Assembly: GCF_005938645.2 (NCBI RefSeq)
Contig: NZ_CP042171.1
Span: 1-64,000 of the forward strand
Length of the DNA: 64,000 nt
Direction: 5' to 3'
Origin: Pedobacter sp. KBS0701
Lineage (GTDB): Bacteria; Bacteroidota; Bacteroidia; Sphingobacteriales; Sphingobacteriaceae
Shown: in pieces, positions 47,494 through 56,400 of the stretch
Position numbering within the stretch: position 1 is the stretch's first letter
How the letters are laid out: the number at the start of each line of letters is the position of its first letter
Position numbers and translations under genes: made by a program
Notes under the pieces: model-generated
The model's database searches: none
What the model was told of the DNA's origin: nothing
Seen by the model: the letters and a program-made list of their open reading frames with translations, nothing else

Positions 47494-48450
47494 TTAAATT
47501 TCCATGATCTGATTGGTAGCCCGCTCCAATATTTCAAATGCCGCCTCTGCCATTTTGTTGCCTTTTCTGTCCAGTAACGGATTTACTTCTACAACTTCCA
47601 GGCAGATAACCTTATTTGATGCCAGGATCCGATCCATTATCTCGAGGATCTCAGATATATCAAAACCTTTAGGCACGGGGGTACCTGTTCCATCAGATAT
47701 TCTATCGCTGTCCATACTGTCAACATCAAACGAGATATAGATAATTTTGCAATGGCTCAATCTGTTTAGCGCTTCCTGAACACATTGCTTAATGCCGAGA
47801 TACCTTACCTCTTCAACTGAAAAATTTCTTATACATTTTTGTTTTATCAGTGCTAGTTCTGCCTGCTCCATATCCCTTACACCAAAATAAACCAGGTTAT
47901 CGGGAGCAATTTTTTTCTCCTTCATCCCAATTTCCTTCATTCGGTTCCATAATTCAATGGTTTCATCTTCGAGGTTGTTGACCTGATTTTCTTTATTATC
48001 TATTCCAAGTGCAGCTGCCAATGGCATCCCATGGATATTACCGGATGGGGAGGTAAATGGGGAATGAATATCTGCATGTGCATCAATCCAGACTACGCCT
48101 AAATCTTCTTTAGGCTTTGCCATCCGGATGCCACTGATGGTGCCCAGTGCAGAGGAGTGATCGCCTGACAGCACAATCGGAAACTCATCATCCATCAATG
48201 TCACTGAAACGGCCTGGGCTACTCTTTCACATTGTTCTAGCACTTGTGCAATCCTTTTCGCAAAAGCGTTTCTGTCTTTATTGTAAATTGACTCGTTATG
48301 GGTTTTGACGTCCAAAAATGCATATTGGTTAAAATATTCGCTGCCCTTATTTATTGCTGCAATCTCAATCGCATCAATCCCCAAATCTGAACCACGTGTT
48401 CCTGCACCAATATCCGATCTGTTTTTAATCAATTTTATAACTTTTCCCAT
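47494..48450 (-). CDS. rocF: Arginase
   Basis: A 318-residue ureohydrolase that converts arginine to ornithine and urea with a binuclear Mn2+ centre. Metal-binding motifs are all present: SGDHSSALGTISG, WIDAHADIHSP and ISFDVDSMD. DGTGTPVPKGF is the typical segment after the last. The N-terminus MGKVIKLIKNRSDIGAGTRG is close to Bacteroidota arginases. It lies 2 bp after the ornithine aminotransferase gene in the same operon, so the pair takes arginine to glutamate semialdehyde. Cytosolic. Confidence 0.95.
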   Translation of the reverse strand: MGKVIKLIKNRSDIGAGTRGSDLGIDAIEIAAINKGSEYFNQYAFLDVKTHNESIYNKDRNAFAKRIAQVLEQCERVAQAVSVTLMDDEFPIVLSGDHSSALGTISGIRMAKPKEDLGVVWIDAHADIHSPFTSPSGNIHGMPLAAALGIDNKENQVNNLEDETIELWNRMKEIGMKEKKIAPDNLVYFGVRDMEQAELALIKQKCIRNFSVEEVRYLGIKQCVQEALNRLSHCKIIYISFDVDSMDSDRISDGTGTPVPKGFDISEILEIMDRILASNKVICLEVVEVNPLLDRKGNKMAEAAFEILERATNQIMEI

Positions 48451-48452
48451 CT

Positions 48453-49694
48453 TTATGATTTAAAGTTTTCTAATGCTTCAGCAATAATTTTAAGGCTCGT
48501 TTGCACTTCCTCTTTTGAAATAATTAACGGTGGCGCCAATCGTATTTTGTTACCGTGGGTAGGTTTGGCCAGCAATCCGCCCTCCATTAGTTTTACACAA
48601 ATTTCCCATCCCATCTTCGAATGTTCATCGCAATCTATTTCAATTGCATTTAAAAGTCCTTTGCCCCGAACCTTTTTAATGATGCTGTTGCGTTTCGCGA
48701 TGTCCTGTAAACCATCCCGAAAGATAACGCCCATTGAAGCCGCATTAGCGGGCATGTTTTCATCTATGATGACCTGCAAAGCAACTTCGGCTACTGCTGC
48801 TGCTAAGGGGTTACCGCCAAAGGTCGAGCCATGTTCACCAGCTTTGATGGTCAACATAATTTCATCATCAGCAAGCACTGCAGATACAGGTAAAACTCCT
48901 CCGGAAAGGGCTTTGCCAAGGATGATCATATCAGGTCTGTTTTCCAAAGTCTGAACGTCGTAAGATGCCATTAAGCGACCAGTCCTGCCCATACCGGTCT
49001 GAATTTCATCCGCAATATACAATACGCCATGGTTTTTGCATATCCTGGAGACATTAGCAAGGTAGTTATCGTCTGGAATGATTACACCAGCTTCACCCTG
49101 TATAGGTTCAACCAGGAAACCGGCAATGTAAGGGTCTGACTTTAGCAAACTTTCCAGGGCATCAATATTATTGTAAGGAACCTGCAGTATACCCTCTAAA
49201 AATGGACCAAAACCATCCTTCGCACTTCGGTCACTGGATCCTGAAATTATAGATATTGTTCTGCCATGAAAGTTATTGGAGGCAAATGCAATCTTTGCGT
49301 TCCCGGCTGGGATTTTCTTTTTTTGATAGGCCCACTTTCTGCACAGTTTAATCGCAGTTTCCACTGCTTCTGCGCCTGAGTTCATTAATAACACTTTATC
49401 AAACCCAAACGTTGTCGATAATTGCTCTTCCAGATGGCCAAGTTTATTATTATAAAAAGCCCTGGAGGTCAGGGTTAACCTGCTGGCCTGGTCGATTAAT
49501 GCGTCGATAATTTTTGGGTGACAATGCCCCTGGTTGACCGCAGAGTATGCGGATAAAAAATCAAAATAACTGTTTCCTTCTACGTCCCATAGCTTTATTC
49601 CACTTCCTTTCTCTAAAACAACAGGTAGGGGGTGATAGTTATGCGCCCCGAATAATAATTCTCTATCGATATATGCTTTGCTGATTTCCGACAT
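48453..49694 (-). CDS. rocD: Ornithine aminotransferase
   Basis: A 413-residue class III PLP-dependent aminotransferase that converts ornithine and 2-oxoglutarate to glutamate-5-semialdehyde and glutamate. Family marks include YFDFLSAYSAVNQGHCHPKI, MNSGAEAVETAIKLCRKWAY, the PLP aspartate in IADEIQTGMGRTG and the PLP lysine in ILGKALSGGVLPVSA. It is the first gene of the operon with arginase. The regulator gene lies divergently 123 bp upstream. Confidence 0.96.
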   Translation of the reverse strand: MSEISKAYIDRELLFGAHNYHPLPVVLEKGSGIKLWDVEGNSYFDFLSAYSAVNQGHCHPKIIDALIDQASRLTLTSRAFYNNKLGHLEEQLSTTFGFDKVLLMNSGAEAVETAIKLCRKWAYQKKKIPAGNAKIAFASNNFHGRTISIISGSSDRSAKDGFGPFLEGILQVPYNNIDALESLLKSDPYIAGFLVEPIQGEAGVIIPDDNYLANVSRICKNHGVLYIADEIQTGMGRTGRLMASYDVQTLENRPDMIILGKALSGGVLPVSAVLADDEIMLTIKAGEHGSTFGGNPLAAAVAEVALQVIIDENMPANAASMGVIFRDGLQDIAKRNSIIKKVRGKGLLNAIEIDCDEHSKMGWEICVKLMEGGLLAKPTHGNKIRLAPPLIISKEEVQTSLKIIAEALENFKS

Positions 49695-49717
49695 GATATA
49701 TTGGTTAGTTTATTGGT

Positions 49718-49774
49718 CAAAAATATTAGAATTAACTATTTCAGTCAACAATAGCTTATTATTGTTTATTTTTG
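49718..49774. promoter_or_regulatory. Divergent rocD / lrp promoters around an AT-rich palindrome
   Basis: On the minus strand TATTTTTG (plus 49718-49725) is an exact -7 box for rocD, with TTG (plus 49746-49748) 20 bp upstream. On the plus strand TATTTTTG at 49767-49774 is a -7 box for the regulator. Between them AACAATAGCTTATTATTGTT (49747-49766) is palindromic at its ends (AACAATA/TATTGTT) and overlaps the rocD -33 element. It is a good candidate Lrp/AsnC operator. Confidence 0.6.
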
Positions 49775-49817
49775 GTGTATTATAAATTATAATTGACTTC
49801 TTTTATTCGTAAATACA

Positions 49818-50270
49818 ATGGTTATAGATAAATTTGACACCGAGCTACTGAAACGCCTGGAGAAAGATGGCCGTATCGCATTCTCGACGGTAGCGTTGTC
49901 ACTTGGGGTTTCCAATACGATGGTTCATCAACGATTTTCGAGATTGTTGCAACGGGGTGTTTTGAGTGGGGTTAAGCCTGTATTAAATGAGAAGAAAATG
50001 GGCTTTGACTGGGGGAGTTTTACTGGCCTTACGCTGGATAAAGATTACGATTCAGCCAGGGTAATTGAAGCTTTGCGCGAGGTAGAGGAAGTAACTGAAT
50101 GTTATTTTATTACGGGAAGATATACCCTTTTCATAAAAATTGTGGCCCGGAATCATGAGCACATGCGCGAGGTTCTTTATAATAAAATTGATTCAATTCC
50201 CGGAATTATAAAAACAGATTCCATTATTGAGCTCGGATGCGCTTTCAAGCGAAATGTTAATATTGCCTAA
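49818..50270 (+). CDS. Lrp/AsnC family transcriptional regulator
   Basis: A 150-residue regulator. The N-terminal HTH (LLKRLEKDGRIAFSTVALSL then GVSNTMVHQRFSRL) is followed by a RAM/ACT-like ligand domain (VEEVTECYFITGRYTLFIKI, SIPGIIKTDSIIEL). It is divergent from rocD-rocF, so it probably responds to arginine or ornithine and controls that operon. The ligand is inferred from the neighbours. No known essential residue seems missing. Confidence 0.93.
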   Translation: MVIDKFDTELLKRLEKDGRIAFSTVALSLGVSNTMVHQRFSRLLQRGVLSGVKPVLNEKKMGFDWGSFTGLTLDKDYDSARVIEALREVEEVTECYFITGRYTLFIKIVARNHEHMREVLYNKIDSIPGIIKTDSIIELGCAFKRNVNIA

Positions 50271-50550: not shown

Positions 50551-51264
50551 TTATTTAATTATTGAATCGATTAGTGTCCCGATTAAAATAGCGAGCATAT
50601 AATAGCTCATCATTCCAAGGAGATAGGCAAATAGTGCTTTTAGGTAACTGGCTATTTTTCCAGGATTAAAGAAATGTCCAATAGCCCAGGTGCAATAGCC
50701 AATGGCGAGAATGCTTGAGGTGATCTTAAAGTCGACATGGGTTACACCTTCCAGAAAGGCGAACAAGGCGAATATCAGCATGCCAAAGCCCATTACGAAA
50801 CAAAGCAGTATCAGGATCTCAAAATAGTTATAGGTGTATTTTCTGAAGAAAAGCTTGATAAAGAGCGCAATCAATGCGCCAATTAATATATTTGAATATC
50901 CCATGTGTGACTCCGTCCAGTCCATAAATTTTGCGGCGGTAGACTGGGCTGCAAGGTCATGGCTTACCATGCTTTGGATATGGAAAAAATGAGATATTAT
51001 GCTGTAGATAAGCGAGGTAATAATGATAAAGATTACAGGCTTAACCAATCTGCTCCTGTCTTCTGAGAAAAAATGCTTAATGTTGGTGCCTGGCCTCAGC
51101 AGCAGTTCCCTCATGGTATAAAGAATGCCTCTTTCAAAGTGCAGTACATGTTCGATTTCATGTAGGAGATAATGAGCATTAATTCTTTTTAAGCTAACAG
51201 GATGTCCGCAGTCCGGACAATATTTTTTTTCTACTTCCGAGTTACAGATTTTGCAATTTATCAT
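50551..51264 (-). CDS. DUF3667 zinc-ribbon membrane protein
   Basis: A 237-residue protein. The N-terminus holds a zinc-ribbon (CKICNSEVEKKYCPDCGHPV; two CxxC pairs). A short amphipathic region HYLLHEIEHVLHFERGILYT then leads to RPGTNIKHFFSEDRSRLVKP, a hallmark of DUF3667. About five membrane helices follow. The family is common in Bacteroidota and has no assigned function. It stands alone, convergent with the Lrp gene and divergent from the exporter operon. Confidence 0.85.
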   Translation of the reverse strand: MINCKICNSEVEKKYCPDCGHPVSLKRINAHYLLHEIEHVLHFERGILYTMRELLLRPGTNIKHFFSEDRSRLVKPVIFIIITSLIYSIISHFFHIQSMVSHDLAAQSTAAKFMDWTESHMGYSNILIGALIALFIKLFFRKYTYNYFEILILLCFVMGFGMLIFALFAFLEGVTHVDFKITSSILAIGYCTWAIGHFFNPGKIASYLKALFAYLLGMMSYYMLAILIGTLIDSIIK

Positions 51265-51608: not shown

Positions 51609-52613
51609 ATGAAAAAACACCGTAATGCGCTTAGTCCCACGCCGTGGCAGCGGCTTGTCGAGATGCTTCATGTGGAGCGCTCGACCATCAACTATATATT
51701 TCTTTACGCCGGCCTTATTGGGGTCATTGGACTTTCCCTTCCGCTTGGCACGGCTGCAGTTTTTAATCTGCTCTCCAACGGCTCGATGTATAGTTCAACT
51801 TATATACTCATAGCTGCTATTTTAATTGGGATCGTAGTTGGTGGCATCTTGCTGATGGGGCAGCTCTCACTGGTCGAATATCTTGAGCAGAAGATTTTTA
51901 TCAAGGCCGCTATCGGATTTGCTTATCGACTGCCCAGGATCAAAAAAAAAGAATTTGAGGGAGAAGACCCAAGAGAACTGGTTAACAGATTTTTTGACGT
52001 GCTTACCATTCAAAAAGGCTTGACCAAGTTGCTAATAGATATTGTGGCTTCGGGTGTGCTAATATTTTTCAGCGCCATACTACTTTCTTTTTATCATCCG
52101 GTATTTATCGGTTTTGGAATCTTTACTATTGCCTGTATCGCTGTGATAATTACCATTTATTACCGCAGGGGAGTGGATACGAGTATCGAAGAATCTGAGT
52201 ATAAATATCAGGTTGTTGCTTATCTTGAAAACGTGGCTGCCGATCTTGATACTTATCGGGGCAATGAAGCTGAGATGGAGAATATCACAGTAATGACCGA
52301 TGAGATTACTTCCAGGTATGTAGAGGCAAGAAATGATCATTTTAGTATTTTGAAAAGGCTGTTTGCAAGTGCAGTTGCGCTTAGGACTATTTTGATGGGT
52401 GCTCTTTTGCTATTAGGTTCCTACTTTGTTGTGCAGCGGGAGATGACTTTCGGACAGTTTGTAGCAGCTGAAGTGATTATTGTTCAGATTTCTTATGCCG
52501 TAGAAAAACTCATGACCAGTTTGAATACCGTTTTTGATATGGTGACAGGTAGTGAGAAGCTCGCCGTGGTAACGGATATGGAACTGGAGGAAGGAGAAAG
52601 GCACCATGGTTAA
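51609..52613 (+). CDS. ABC exporter transmembrane domain protein without an ATPase domain
   Basis: A 334-residue membrane protein that resembles the transmembrane domain of type-1 ABC exporters. About six hydrophobic helices are visible (for example FLYAGLIGVIGLSLPLGTAA, YILIAAILIGIVVGGILL, ALRTILMGALLLLGSYFVVQ), with the cytosolic-loop segment EGEDPRELVNRFFDVLTIQK between. The sequence ends with TGSEKLAVVTDMELEEGE, which is just where a nucleotide-binding domain normally begins. No Walker A or ABC signature follows, and the next gene overlaps by 8 bp, so the ATPase is not simply broken off. Its partner ATPase, if any, is elsewhere. With the HlyD and TolC genes it looks like an atypical type I secretion or drug-efflux system. 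Confidence 0.78.
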   Translation: MKKHRNALSPTPWQRLVEMLHVERSTINYIFLYAGLIGVIGLSLPLGTAAVFNLLSNGSMYSSTYILIAAILIGIVVGGILLMGQLSLVEYLEQKIFIKAAIGFAYRLPRIKKKEFEGEDPRELVNRFFDVLTIQKGLTKLLIDIVASGVLIFFSAILLSFYHPVFIGFGIFTIACIAVIITIYYRRGVDTSIEESEYKYQVVAYLENVAADLDTYRGNEAEMENITVMTDEITSRYVEARNDHFSILKRLFASAVALRTILMGALLLLGSYFVVQREMTFGQFVAAEVIIVQISYAVEKLMTSLNTVFDMVTGSEKLAVVTDMELEEGERHHG

Positions 52614-53964
52614 TCAGACAAAGAAACTGGTCGTAAGAAAGGTGAATGAGTATGCTGTACTATCCAAAGCGCAGCTTATTTCTTCAAGGGGGCCGAGACT
52701 GCTTGGGAGGGTAATGATTGGGGTATCTATCCTATTCATCATTATTCTGCTCCTTCCATGGCGGCAAACGATATCCGGGCGCGGTACGGTTACTGCTTTA
52801 AGACCTGAAGACAGGCCGCAGACCATTCAAAACCAGATTGGCGGACGCATTGAGTATTGGGCAGTACGTGAGGGAGAACAGGTGAAAAAGGGAGATACAA
52901 TTCTTGTTCTTTCTGAGACCAGCCAATCTTATTTTAATCCAGAACTGCCCGAGCGTCTGGATGAACAGCTGAGCGCCAAAAGGGGTAGCGAAGAGGCTGC
53001 GGAGCAGAAAATTTCTGCAAGCAATGCCCAGATCAATGCATTGAGCAATGGGGTAAGGGTGCAGCTCAGCGCTGCAAAAAACAGTGTAATCCAGGCTAGA
53101 AATACCGTAAGAATTGATAGCGCTGAACTTGTAGCTGTAAAAAACTTTTATCAGACAAGCAAGGTAAGATTGGAGCGATATGAAGCTGGTTACAAAAATG
53201 GCCTTTTCTCGCTGACTGATATTGAAACAAGGAGATTAAAGCTTGCTGAGGACAAAGCTAAAGAGGTCGCTCAGGAGAATAAGCTCAACAGCGCCAGACA
53301 GGCTCTTGCCAATGCCGTCATTGAACTTGATAACATTATGGCCAAGTTCAGCCAGTCTTTAGCCTCTGCGCAGGCTGACCGTAGTTCGGCACTCTCCGGA
53401 AAAGCTTCAGTCAGAGAAGAGATAGCAAGACTCCGCAATGAGATGAGCAATATCGATATCAGAAGGGGACTTTATGTGGTACGTGCTCCACAGGATGGGT
53501 ATATCGTCAAAACTTTCAAAGCAGGTATAGGGGAAAATATTAAAGAAGGCGAATCTGTGGCTACGCTACAGCCATTGTCGCCAATTGTTGCCGCTGAAAT
53601 TTATGTGGATGCAATGGATGTTCCGCTGATCTTAGACAGCAGTAATGTACGGCTTCAGTTTGAAGGCTGGCCATCGGTGCAGTTTTCAGGCTGGCCATCC
53701 GTTGCTGTAGGAACTTTTGGAGGTAAGGTATCGGTTATCGATAGGGTAAGCACCGGTGGTAAATACCGGATATTGGTCAGACAACTTGTCAAGGTACCTA
53801 AAGGGGATGAGCCATGGCCGATTCAGCTCCGGCAAGGGTCGGGAGTTTATGGCAGGGTCATTCTACAATCGGTGCCGGTCTGGTATGAGATTTGGCGGCA
53901 GCTCAATGGCTTTCCACCAAGTCTTGATAAAGCCCCAGGCGAAGAAAATATCAATAACAAGTAA
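52606..53964 (+). CDS. HlyD family membrane-fusion protein
   Basis: A 452-residue periplasmic adaptor. A single membrane helix lies at about 36-52 (MIGVSILFIIILLLP). A lipoyl-type half motif follows (GGRIEYWAVREGEQVKKGDT), then a long alpha-hairpin at about 120-290, and the second half (YVVRAPQDGYIVKTFKAGIG). This is the layout of type I secretion adaptors. It overlaps the ABC-like gene by 8 bp and the TolC gene by 1 bp, so the three are translationally coupled. Confidence 0.92.
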   Translation: MVNQTKKLVVRKVNEYAVLSKAQLISSRGPRLLGRVMIGVSILFIIILLLPWRQTISGRGTVTALRPEDRPQTIQNQIGGRIEYWAVREGEQVKKGDTILVLSETSQSYFNPELPERLDEQLSAKRGSEEAAEQKISASNAQINALSNGVRVQLSAAKNSVIQARNTVRIDSAELVAVKNFYQTSKVRLERYEAGYKNGLFSLTDIETRRLKLAEDKAKEVAQENKLNSARQALANAVIELDNIMAKFSQSLASAQADRSSALSGKASVREEIARLRNEMSNIDIRRGLYVVRAPQDGYIVKTFKAGIGENIKEGESVATLQPLSPIVAAEIYVDAMDVPLILDSSNVRLQFEGWPSVQFSGWPSVAVGTFGGKVSVIDRVSTGGKYRILVRQLVKVPKGDEPWPIQLRQGSGVYGRVILQSVPVWYEIWRQLNGFPPSLDKAPGEENINNK

Positions 53965-55445
53965 TGAAGACTTTTCTTAAAAAGCATGTTCATGGACCGG
54001 TAAGTGGCATGGCATCGTTAAAACGTAGTGTCTTTTTTTTCTTTTGGCTGATGATCGGTATGGGTGCTTCGGCTCAGCAAAAGGGAGCTGTGGGGGCTGA
54101 AGTATTTTCACTCCGCGACATGCAGGAAATTGTGCTGACCGGACATCCGGTTATCAAGCAGGCTGGCCTGCTCAGTAAGGCCGCTCAGGCAAAAGTGCTT
54201 CAGTCTCTTGGCAATTTTGATCCTGAGCTCATGGCTTCCTTTGGAAGAAAGATTTTTGGGGGCACCGAATACTATAATCATTGGGACAGCCAGCTCAAAG
54301 TTCCGCTGTGGCTTGCTGGGGCTGATCTGAATGTAGGTTATGATCGTAATGTAGGGGTTTATAACAATCCCGAAACCAGGACGAGTAATACCGGACTTTC
54401 AGGTATAGGACTTAATATCCCCCTGGGGCAGGGCCTGCTGATCGATTCCCGCAGAAGCACCTTGCGGCAGGCTAAAATTATGGTTGGCTATGCGGAAGCC
54501 GAGCAGATCGCACAGATCAATTCAGTATGGATTTCTTCTCTTAAGGATTACTGGAACTGGTATTTTGCTTTCGAGCAGCAGCGTTTTACTTCTGAGGGAG
54601 TCTCGCTTGCAGAAAAAAGATTCTTAGCTTTAAAAGCACAGGTGCTTATTGGAGATAAACCTCCGATAGATTCAGTTGAAGCATCCATCACCCTTCAGGA
54701 TAGGAGGGTTCAGCTCCAGGAGAGCAATGTAAAGCTCAATAATGCAAGGCTCCTGCTTTCTAATAATCTTTGGTCTGCCAGTGGCATTCCTCAGGAACTT
54801 CCCGCTCAGGCCATTCCGGAAAGTGATGTGAGTACTCAAGGGGTTATGGACGGATTTCGCCTGGACTCACTTGTGAGAGAGGCTGCCCGGCAACACCCTG
54901 AAGTGTTGAAGCTAAAGAATCAGCAGGCGCAGCTAGGGGTAGAGGAACAGTATAGGAGGGAAATGCTTAAACCAAAACTGAACATCAAAGGTTCTTTTTT
55001 AGCTGGTAGAAGGGATTTTTCCTATGTTGCCGATAACTATGATTTCCGTCTGGCCAACTATAAGGTTGGTATTGATCTCTCTTTTCCCTTGTTTTTAAGG
55101 GAGCAGCGGGGCAAGCTCCGCGAGGTGCGGATCAAACAGGCCGAAGTGACTTATGGACTGCAGCAGACAGGCCGTGAGATTCAGACTGAAGTGTTTTCTG
55201 CATTTAACGAGTATAAAGGGTATCAGGCGCAACTGGAAATGCAAACCAGGAATGTGGGCAGTCAAATGGCTCTTGTGCGTGGTGAGCTGCAGAAATTTGA
55301 CCTTGGTGAGAGTAACCTTTTTTTAATCAATTCAAGGGAAACCAAACTGATAGAGATGCAGGTTAAGCGGGCAGAAATCATATCCAGTCTTCGCAAAGCA
55401 ATGGCAGAAATTTATTACAGGGCCGGAAAACGTCTGGAGTTTTAA
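53964..55445 (+). CDS. TolC family outer-membrane efflux protein
   Basis: A 493-residue outer-membrane factor. A membrane/signal segment (FFFFWLMIGMGASAQQ) is about 30-40 residues from the first Met, so an internal start is possible, although the TAATG overlap with the HlyD gene favours 53964. The mature part has the repeated helical hairpins of OEP domains (LSKAAQAKVLQSLGNFDPEL, KNQQAQLGVEEQYRREMLKP, LGESNLFLINSRETKL). It gives the outer-membrane channel for the exporter. It is followed by a strong terminator. Confidence 0.92.
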   Translation: MKTFLKKHVHGPVSGMASLKRSVFFFFWLMIGMGASAQQKGAVGAEVFSLRDMQEIVLTGHPVIKQAGLLSKAAQAKVLQSLGNFDPELMASFGRKIFGGTEYYNHWDSQLKVPLWLAGADLNVGYDRNVGVYNNPETRTSNTGLSGIGLNIPLGQGLLIDSRRSTLRQAKIMVGYAEAEQIAQINSVWISSLKDYWNWYFAFEQQRFTSEGVSLAEKRFLALKAQVLIGDKPPIDSVEASITLQDRRVQLQESNVKLNNARLLLSNNLWSASGIPQELPAQAIPESDVSTQGVMDGFRLDSLVREAARQHPEVLKLKNQQAQLGVEEQYRREMLKPKLNIKGSFLAGRRDFSYVADNYDFRLANYKVGIDLSFPLFLREQRGKLREVRIKQAEVTYGLQQTGREIQTEVFSAFNEYKGYQAQLEMQTRNVGSQMALVRGELQKFDLGESNLFLINSRETKLIEMQVKRAEIISSLRKAMAEIYYRAGKRLEF

Positions 55446-55536: not shown

Positions 55537-56400
55537 ATGGCCTCAGGTTTTTTTGCAATTCTGGACGATATTGCAGCTTTAATGGATGATGTTGCCGTTA
55601 GCGCCAAACTGGCAACCAGGAAAACTGCAGGGATTTTGGGTGATGATCTGGCTGTCAACGCAGAGAAGGCAACTGGCTTCCTCTCTTCAAGAGAACTCCC
55701 TGTACTATGGTCCATTACCAAGGGTTCTTTTATCAATAAGCTTATTATTGTGCCCATCGCTTTAGTGCTCAATTCTTTTTTTCCGTTAGCCATTACCATT
55801 ATCCTTTTACTTGGCGGATTTTATTTAGCATACGAAGGGGTTGAAAAAATAATGGGATATCTCTTTCCTTCTTCGACCGTTGGGGAGATAAAGGAAAAAG
55901 ATGAAATTGAGGATAATGTTTTGCTGGAGCGGGCCAAGGTAAGGTCTGCTATCACTACGGATTTTATACTTTCTGTTGAAATTGTGATCATCGCCCTTGG
56001 AACGGTTTTGGGCGAGCGTTTAATGCTGCAGATATTAACTGTCTCTGTAGTTGCCCTTATAGCAACAGTTGGGGTGTATGGGCTCGTTGCCCTTATCGTT
56101 AGAATGGATGATGGAGGACAGGCACTAATCAAAAAATCAACAGGTAAAGGCTTTATGTTTTTCATTGGAAAACTGCTGGTTAATTCCTTGCCGGTCATAA
56201 TCCGTATGCTGAGTATTGGCGGTACCATAGCGCTAATTTTGGTTGCGGGTGGAATTTTTTCGCATAACCTTCATTTTTTGGCCGGGGCCTCTCCGAATAT
56301 TCCATCCATTATCTATGAATTTCTACTTGGATTGCTGGCAGGCTTCATCGCTTTTGGACTTTTTAGCCTGGTTAAGCGTATCGTTAAATATTTTCGCTAA
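55537..56400 (+). CDS. DUF808 family membrane protein
   Basis: A 287-residue inner-membrane protein. The N-terminus MASGFFAILDDIAALMDDVA followed by TRKTAGILGDDLAVNAEKA is the typical start of DUF808 (YedI-like). About six membrane helices follow from residue 70 onward. The family is widespread; YedI in E. coli is uncharacterised. It follows a terminator, so it is probably a separate unit. Confidence 0.92.
   Translation: MASGFFAILDDIAALMDDVAVSAKLATRKTAGILGDDLAVNAEKATGFLSSRELPVLWSITKGSFINKLIIVPIALVLNSFFPLAITIILLLGGFYLAYEGVEKIMGYLFPSSTVGEIKEKDEIEDNVLLERAKVRSAITTDFILSVEIVIIALGTVLGERLMLQILTVSVVALIATVGVYGLVALIVRMDDGGQALIKKSTGKGFMFFIGKLLVNSLPVIIRMLSIGGTIALILVAGGIFSHNLHFLAGASPNIPSIIYEFLLGLLAGFIAFGLFSLVKRIVKYFR

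Follow-up and report, generated by a model that had tools for sequence, protein, structure and literature searches.

EmrAB-TolC and AcrAB-TolC are proton-driven tripartite pumps whose inner-membrane part belongs to the major facilitator superfamily (MFS) or the resistance-nodulation-division (RND) family. A review of tripartite systems lists ATP-binding cassette (ABC), RND, and MFS pumps (PMC8277102). Here, we describe three coupled genes of Pedobacter sp. KBS0701 (contig NZ_CP042171.1), located at 51609 to 55445 of the analyzed 64,000-nucleotide stretch (positions 1 to 64,000 of the contig; "the window"), that encode an ABC-exporter transmembrane domain (TMD), a HlyD-type adaptor, and a TolC-type channel but no nucleotide-binding domain (NBD). 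Like EmrAB-TolC and AcrAB-TolC, this trio would be a TolC-linked pump that uses the proton gradient, whereas its inner-membrane part matches ABC_membrane. It has the same three kinds of components as the type I secretion system (T1SS) HlyB-HlyD-TolC and the PCAT exporters, and PCAT/T1SS-type exporters are the closest kin here, but the trio lacks an ATPase domain, a peptidase domain, and a conserved linked cargo gene. No NBD-less tripartite ABC exporter was found in the open-licence PMC literature, a scope that excludes most subscription papers.

NBD-less ABC membrane domains are known from other settings. SbmA/BacA, of the SLiPT family, is an ABC TMD without an NBD that acts as a proton-driven importer; SLiPTs are described as having an extra helix, TM0, and as having lost the coupling helices, and a glutamate ladder is partly present in their ABC relative YddA (PMC13316013). 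The Pedobacter protein shares with them the ABC type IV TMD fold minus the NBD, and the partial ladder of YddA parallels the presence of glutamate E288 (see below) in the fused relatives described here. SLiPTs, however, import and have TM0, and short helices are predicted here, at low local confidence, at residues 113 to 116 and 213 to 216, where SLiPTs have lost their coupling helices; no Pfam SLiPT match was obtained for our protein. A preliminary description of the locus, made from the sequence alone, knew of no named system with this organization. This holds only in part: SbmA/BacA is a named ABC TMD transporter that lacks an NBD, although it is an importer, and the accessible text mentions no HlyD or TolC partner for it. 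MsbA truncated to its membrane domain (MsbA-MD), likewise an ABC exporter membrane domain without an NBD, is reported to still efflux ethidium, driven by delta-pH (PMC4979069). That construct is artificial, whereas here the truncation is natural, kept by selection, and accompanied by an adaptor and a channel. Heterodimeric exporters with a degenerate site (such as TmrAB and MsRv1273c/72c) have also lost NBD catalytic residues, but one of their ATP sites stays intact; in the trio, the NBD is gone, and no linked partner with an intact site was found.

An ABC transmembrane domain without a nucleotide-binding domain

The source genome is a single contig of 6.33 Mb (100% complete). The open reading frames (ORFs) and the Pfam and NCBIfam profiles bear out the arrangement proposed in the preliminary description, including the 8-bp overlap:

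51609-52613, plus strand: ABC-exporter TMD protein, 334 amino acids (aa), without an NBD and without a peptidase domain (ORF, PF00664, and the TMD part of TIGR03796)
52606-52613, plus strand: overlap of the TMD and HlyD genes, 8 bp (from ORF coordinates)
52606-53964, plus strand: HlyD-type periplasmic adaptor, 452 aa (PF13437 [HlyD_3] and PF13533 [Biotin_lipoyl_2], above cut-off)
53964, plus strand: overlap of the HlyD and TolC genes, 1 bp (from ORF coordinates)
53964-55445, plus strand: TolC-type outer-membrane channel, 493 aa (PF02321 [OEP], two stretches, E = 4e-30)

In the Pfam scan, the TMD protein matched PF00664 (ABC_membrane) at the cut-off (28 bits) over residues 30 to 297, and its alignment to NCBIfam TIGR03796 covered profile positions 137 to 456 of 710, which is the TMD section only. 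ABC_tran was absent from the Pfam matches to E = 1, as the preliminary description had anticipated. The SbmA/BacA family was not among the seven Pfam families found to E = 1, and the same scan gave no match to Peptidase_C39, the N-terminal domain of PCATs. The HlyD and TolC proteins matched the T1SS subfamily models TIGR01843 (the HlyD protein) and TIGR01844 in NCBIfam, both below the models' own cut-offs. Of the T1SS components, the HlyD-type adaptor and the TolC-type channel are thus present in one cluster, and the ABC transporter with an NBD is missing: the TMD ORF stops at residue 334, where the HlyD gene already overlaps it.

An AlphaFold2 model of the TMD protein, built on 18 sequences, has low confidence (mean predicted local distance difference test, 59; predicted template modeling score, 0.48). 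It shows the helix order of type IV exporters, with long helices at residues 62 to 107, 121 to 160, 164 to 211, and 220 to 275. The best Foldseek matches were PCAT1, ComA, and HlyB/D (probability, 1.00), and the best VIA-align match was MsRv1273c/72c (Z = 21.9; 301 residues; root mean square deviation [rmsd], 3.8), with HlyB/D at a Z of 21.6 (301 residues; rmsd, 4.8). Both programs aligned residues 10 to 316 of the model to ABC exporters, and a profile search of PDB sequences was concordant (ABCB10, 7.8e-5; PCAT1, 0.015 to 0.053). SbmA was absent from the best 50 rows of either structural search, which is uninformative on kinship. As judged from the model and in line with the preliminary description, the first gene product is an ABC type IV TMD fold without an NBD.

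Conservation of the trio and decay of the NBD in its relatives

The organization is not confined to the window. We compared 31 TMD-only loci, consisting of the window, 24 loci from Pedobacter, Mucilaginibacter, Sphingobacterium, and Olivibacter, and six loci from other genomes, three of which belong to two further families of the class, outside Sphingobacteriaceae. The nearest named matches are from Pedobacter, with identities of up to 92%. (Loci L001 to L030 were left out of the counts, being contained in wider loci with higher numbers; L151, with a disrupted frame, and L154, a neighboring stretch without the trio, were not used, and five family places, G195, G079, G338, G237, and G288, were not included.) All 31 TMD-only proteins are 330 to 340 aa long, against 489 aa for the shortest fused relative, and in every locus the TMD gene is followed by HlyD and then TolC. 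On first-start ORFs, the 8-bp overlap between the TMD and HlyD genes occurs in nine of the 31 loci and in six fused loci, and 11 further TMD-only loci overlap by 11 bp. The ratio of nonsynonymous to synonymous substitution rates (dN/dS) of the TMD gene was 0.030 to 0.045 against three Pedobacter loci, although at near-saturated dS (1.3 to 2.3), and 0.047 between L032 and L033 (dS, 0.24); comparisons with L031, L034, and L035 were saturated and gave no value. By these rates, the TMD gene is under purifying selection. Since the organization recurs in 31/31 loci, chance, a frameshift, or an assembly error does not explain it, and with the narrow length range, the low dN/dS, and no room before HlyD, a pseudogene was rejected as well. 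The earlier view that the gene is not a simple truncation is upheld.

Among 300 genomes of the order, 128 had a family match at an E value of 1e-20 or better. The TMD-only form was found in 81 genomes (84 places; 63 to 100% identity; frames of up to 380 aa) and the fused form in 47 (49 places; 32 to 41% identity; frames of at least 535 aa), the fused places being classed by identity and frame length alone. No genome carried both forms, against 12.7 expected (P = 8e-8 by Fisher's test, with kinship ignored). Three genomes (G478, G662, and G597) have two TMD-only copies on one contig, about 22 to 24 kb apart and in opposite orientations.

The preliminary description had regarded an NBD fused in close homologues with the same neighbors as evidence against its proposal. 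Such fusions exist: in 86 further family loci, the NBD is in the same ORF as the TMD, with HlyD adjoining in 83 and TolC in 81 (by blast clusters). They fall into a near group (n = 63), with 32 to 44% identity to the window TMD, and a mid group (n = 23), with 25 to 36%; six exporters served as the outgroup. In a motif tally based on loci from the phylum sample, the outgroup NBDs had the Walker A motif, an LSGGQ-like signature, the DE pair, the switch His, and the D-loop Asp in 6/6 cases. The 23 mid-group NBDs retained Walker A in 23, a signature-like LSxG[QE] in 5, DE in 21, and His in 17. Among the 63 near-group NBDs, Walker A was present in 61, and the signature, DE, and the switch His were present in none. 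Their catalytic position is occupied by Asp (51), Asn (6), Ala (1), or Glu (5, read EE), so that 58/63 are without the catalytic glutamate. The six loci closest to the TMD-only clade all read TD or ND and have Asn at the switch His. Judged by motif, the near-group NBDs look catalytically dead. Because the 63 nearer NBDs have lost residues needed for hydrolysis, the fused relatives reveal the origin of the TMD-only form rather than refute it.

Sequence divergence gives the same picture. With pairs above 85% TMD identity excluded, NBD identity minus TMD identity was +0.16 in outgroup pairs (NBD higher in 12/15, a small and diverse control), 0.00 among the five members with LSTGQ/E (7/10), -0.08 in the mid group (70/248), and -0.19 in the near group (0/1,786). 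By this measure, the near-group NBDs diverge faster than their own TMDs, the reverse of the intact controls. Decay is also seen on plasmids, where 22 records matched the family and five were inspected. The trio is present on Novosphingobium, Croceicoccus, and Sphingobium plasmids, with an NBD that lacks Walker A, the signature, Walker B, and the His (3/3 inspected). An Aureibacter plasmid member has also lost Walker A, and a Persicobacter member keeps it except for the final S/T. The three Sphingomonadales plasmids are pNL2, pCME4A9I, and pHAL16 (L175, L176, and L177), and the products are annotated as ABC transporter ATP-binding or transmembrane domain-containing proteins.

A TMD tree was built from 79 of 122 rows after 43 near-copies (at least 82% identity) had been dropped. 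A branch with support of 100/99 separates the 13 TMD-only rows from all others, and a single change was counted in each of the 200 bootstrap trees (100%). The fused L058 is sister to these rows (100/97), followed by five fused rows of the f8 family (99/95), and all six of these fused forms have NBDs that are dead by motif. The tree places the TMD-only form as a single clade within fused relatives that have dead NBDs. Because all six sister forms have dead NBDs, catalysis most likely ended before the domain was deleted, and we infer that this deletion happened once. At depth, the near and mid groups branch without resolution, so the tree does not order the earlier losses. The TMD-only proteins end at the linker between TM6 and the NBD. 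The sister fused forms carry an N-terminal extension of about 160 aa (152 to 165 aa in L058, L059, L060, L075, L079, and L081) that the TMD-only clade does not have. It gave no Pfam match (L058 and L059 scanned) and no PDB sequence match (L058), and its reading as a degenerate C39 domain found no support (hhalign probability of <1% for the six tested, a weak test with a four-sequence profile).

Energy source and rival explanations

Three sites in the TMD protein bear on how it could be driven:

51945-51956, plus strand: coupling helix 1, tip of the first intracellular loop, residues 113 to 116 (predicted by AlphaFold2, low local confidence)
52245-52256, plus strand: coupling helix 2, tip of the second intracellular loop, residues 213 to 216 (helix predicted by AlphaFold2)
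52452-52472, plus strand: TM6 hallmark GQFVAAE, residues 282 to 288, with the membrane glutamate E288 (family motif tally)

TM6 and TM3 are well conserved. The TM6 motif, written GQ[LFMIV][VI][AS][AS]E, occurs in 110/117 family ORFs, in 0/6 outgroup exporters, in 0/4,768 other ORFs of the loci, and in 5/5 plasmid members inspected. E288 itself is present in 13/13 TMD-only, 42/43 near, 22/23 mid, and 0/5 outgroup rows, which makes it the first candidate for ion coupling. Other ionizable positions are family-wide: K300 in TM6 (18/23 mid rows and 1/5 outgroup rows) and E90 at the base of TM2 (Asp in 16/23 mid rows; absent or rare in the five outgroup rows). K136, K140, and D144 in TM3, as well as H163 and H244, are likewise conserved in the family, and the same outgroup rows seldom or never have them.

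Our favored reading, to which we give slightly better than an even chance, is that the three genes encode a tripartite exporter linked to TolC, in which the inner-membrane ABC TMD has lost its NBD after first giving up hydrolysis, with proton drive as the most likely source of energy. In a fused ancestor, the NBD would have lost catalysis and later been deleted once, with the TMD, HlyD, and TolC remaining linked. A TMD homodimer would then work by alternating access and hydrolyze no ATP. The proton gradient would drive it by way of ionizable residues embedded in the membrane (E288, with K300, E90, K136/K140/D144, and H244 as candidate partners), and its substrate would pass via HlyD to TolC. 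Export independent of ATP hydrolysis, by loss of the NBD, is probable; proton drive in particular, argued from conserved residues and the precedents of SbmA and MsbA-MD, is more tentative and, to our minds, falls a little short of an even bet.

Several observations weigh against this reading. The E288 motif predates the loss of the NBD, being present in the mid group with its largely retained DE (21/23) and His (17/23), and E288 may have a substrate-related or structural role instead. With Walker A kept in 61/63 near-group NBDs, the binding of nucleotide could remain important to the fused relatives, and Glu still occupies the catalytic position in five of these NBDs. The regions around the coupling helices are not relaxed: relative conservation is 1.02 in the first (residues 108 to 120), against 0.66 in fused relatives, and 0.80 in the second (residues 209 to 220), against 0.87. 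Something may therefore still contact the intracellular loops, and a partner that still docks there would fit. A protein supplied in trans could make this contact, as could the opposite TMD half or HlyD through its cytoplasmic tail. HlyD reads in two frames in the TMD-only loci L033 and L052, and in-frame stops occur in 1/84 TMD-only places (G492) and 1/49 fused places (G637). The confidence of the structural model, the uncorrected kinship in the co-occurrence test, and the breadth of the search for an NBD in trans (at most 73 first-look candidates per genome) also count here.

The preliminary description left two options, an ATPase in trans and a repurposed TMD, and the evidence leans toward the latter. 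In the first case, the TMD would be powered by a separate ATPase, either an NBD encoded alone or a complete ABC exporter that pairs with it in a mixed dimer. The predicted persistence of both intracellular loops with their tip helices and the conservation of the coupling-helix regions (the first relatively higher than in fused relatives, the second nearly as high) speak for it, as does the content of the source genome, which encodes many lone NBDs and 12 further PF00664 exporters (one reading in two frames). All 12 of the best NBD matches in that genome (at least 134 bits), however, are in ORFs with their own PF00664 TMD, and no orphan exporter-class NBD was found there, the best lone NBD scoring 92 bits. 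Of the 19 lone NBDs retrieved, 10 were classified, and these hit LolD, MacB, FtsE, ProV, YbbA, DarD, or MetN/MlaF-type models best, mostly below the curated cut-offs. A family NBD profile made from nine fused NBDs (limit, 1e-48) scored at least 223 bits in 13/13 fused genomes, two of which (G190 and G186) had supplied profile rows. In 26/26 TMD-only genomes, no relocated family NBD was found among the at most 73 first-look candidates scored in each, all at 182 bits or less; in seven of them with a profile match over the limit, the matches were in frames of 579 to 609 aa. Among the 31 TMD-only loci, neither an NBD gene nor a second ABC gene is a conserved neighbor, a comparison that addresses linked partners only. 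Moreover, the lineage does not depend on its own hydrolysis, because the NBD of the nearer fused relatives is already dead. Taken together, we regard an ATPase in trans as unlikely, although it is the alternative we take most seriously.

The TMD might also be a passive gated channel that, without being energized, lets a cytoplasmic substrate out through HlyD and TolC. The complete loss of the motor, the retained TolC-linked conduit, and the lack of a conserved linked cargo gene agree with this. Against it stand the ionizable residues conserved inside membrane helices and best fold matches that include occluded, alternating-access exporters, and a leak would presumably be costly to the cell; we consider such a channel improbable. 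It is more doubtful still, to the point of being a very slim chance, that the TMD is a relic without a transport role, retained because it helps to assemble, sense, or regulate a HlyD-TolC conduit used by another pump. HlyD and TolC could in principle serve other pumps, and the genome has other exporters, but the three-gene linkage (31/31), the purifying selection on the TMD, and the conservation of TM6 and TM3 speak against a relic.

Two candidate partners near the loci were rejected. Downstream of the L056 trio lies a 282-aa NBD whose motifs appear intact on inspection by eye (LSLGQ and DEPTNGLD); it adjoins its own membrane protein and is absent from the other loci. The NBD-bearing ORFs of 953 to 987 aa beside four mid-group loci are, by eye, UvrA-like twin-NBD proteins (LSGGESQRIR) and not ABC partners. 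Elsewhere in the source genome (contig C1, about 1455070 to 1457290; L172:71-2292), the coding sequence of a C39-peptidase ABC exporter is divided midway through the TMD into two ORFs that share 4 bp, and a HlyD-like ORF follows; this is a frameshift, a split gene, or a sequencing error.

Neighboring genes, cargo, and implications

The most recurrent neighbor outside the trio is a regulator cluster just upstream (about 1.2 kb before the TMD gene midpoint), found in 46/86 fused loci and 1/31 TMD-only loci. The sole member scanned (L056:5427-6107) matched TetR_N, and this neighbor points to inducible efflux as the role of the fused relatives. Besides the trio itself, no gene of at least 90 aa was linked to most of the 31 TMD-only trios (by blast clusters). 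Of 144 ORFs of 25 to 95 aa near these trios, the widest cluster spans three loci, and 12 small ORFs in nine loci have GG/GA within residues 10 to 30 (unscored). A conserved small cargo peptide beside the trio was not found among these ORFs; cargo may be unlinked. Because no cargo gene is conserved in linkage and a TetR-like regulator accompanies the trio in about half of the fused relatives, a broad efflux role seems likelier than a dedicated cargo. A two-component sensor kinase lies upstream in seven TMD-only loci and a DUF1275 protein downstream in seven (examples, L037:5946-7304 and L037:12889-13638).

In the window, the trio is flanked by genes for a DUF3667 protein (50551 to 51264, upstream) and a DUF808 membrane protein (55537 to 56400, downstream); neither is conserved with the trio, and both were rejected as parts of the system. 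Farther upstream (47494 to 50270), arginase-like and ornithine-aminotransferase-like genes, read by eye, are divergent from an Lrp/AsnC-like regulator.

What the analysis adds is a history. As read from these sequences, the motor most likely broke first and was discarded later, while selection kept the transport unit. The LmrA membrane domain is reportedly another laboratory truncation in the ion-coupling debate, and ion coupling of ABC exporter membrane domains has so far been argued from such constructs, MsbA-MD among them. The trio offers such a truncation made by evolution and kept by selection, complete with adaptor and outer-membrane channel. Its living relatives stand at several stages of motor decay (near-intact, dead, and without an NBD), which makes the question testable by family comparison. 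The case also cautions that the label "ABC transporter ATP-binding protein" can name proteins that probably hydrolyze no ATP. More broadly, it is conceivable, though we would not yet call it probable, that an ABC exporter lineage across Bacteroidota and Sphingomonadales gave up ATP hydrolysis, with an NBD that decayed to varying degrees and was deleted in one clade, and that a proton-driven secondary exporter with HlyD and TolC would represent a further energetic class.

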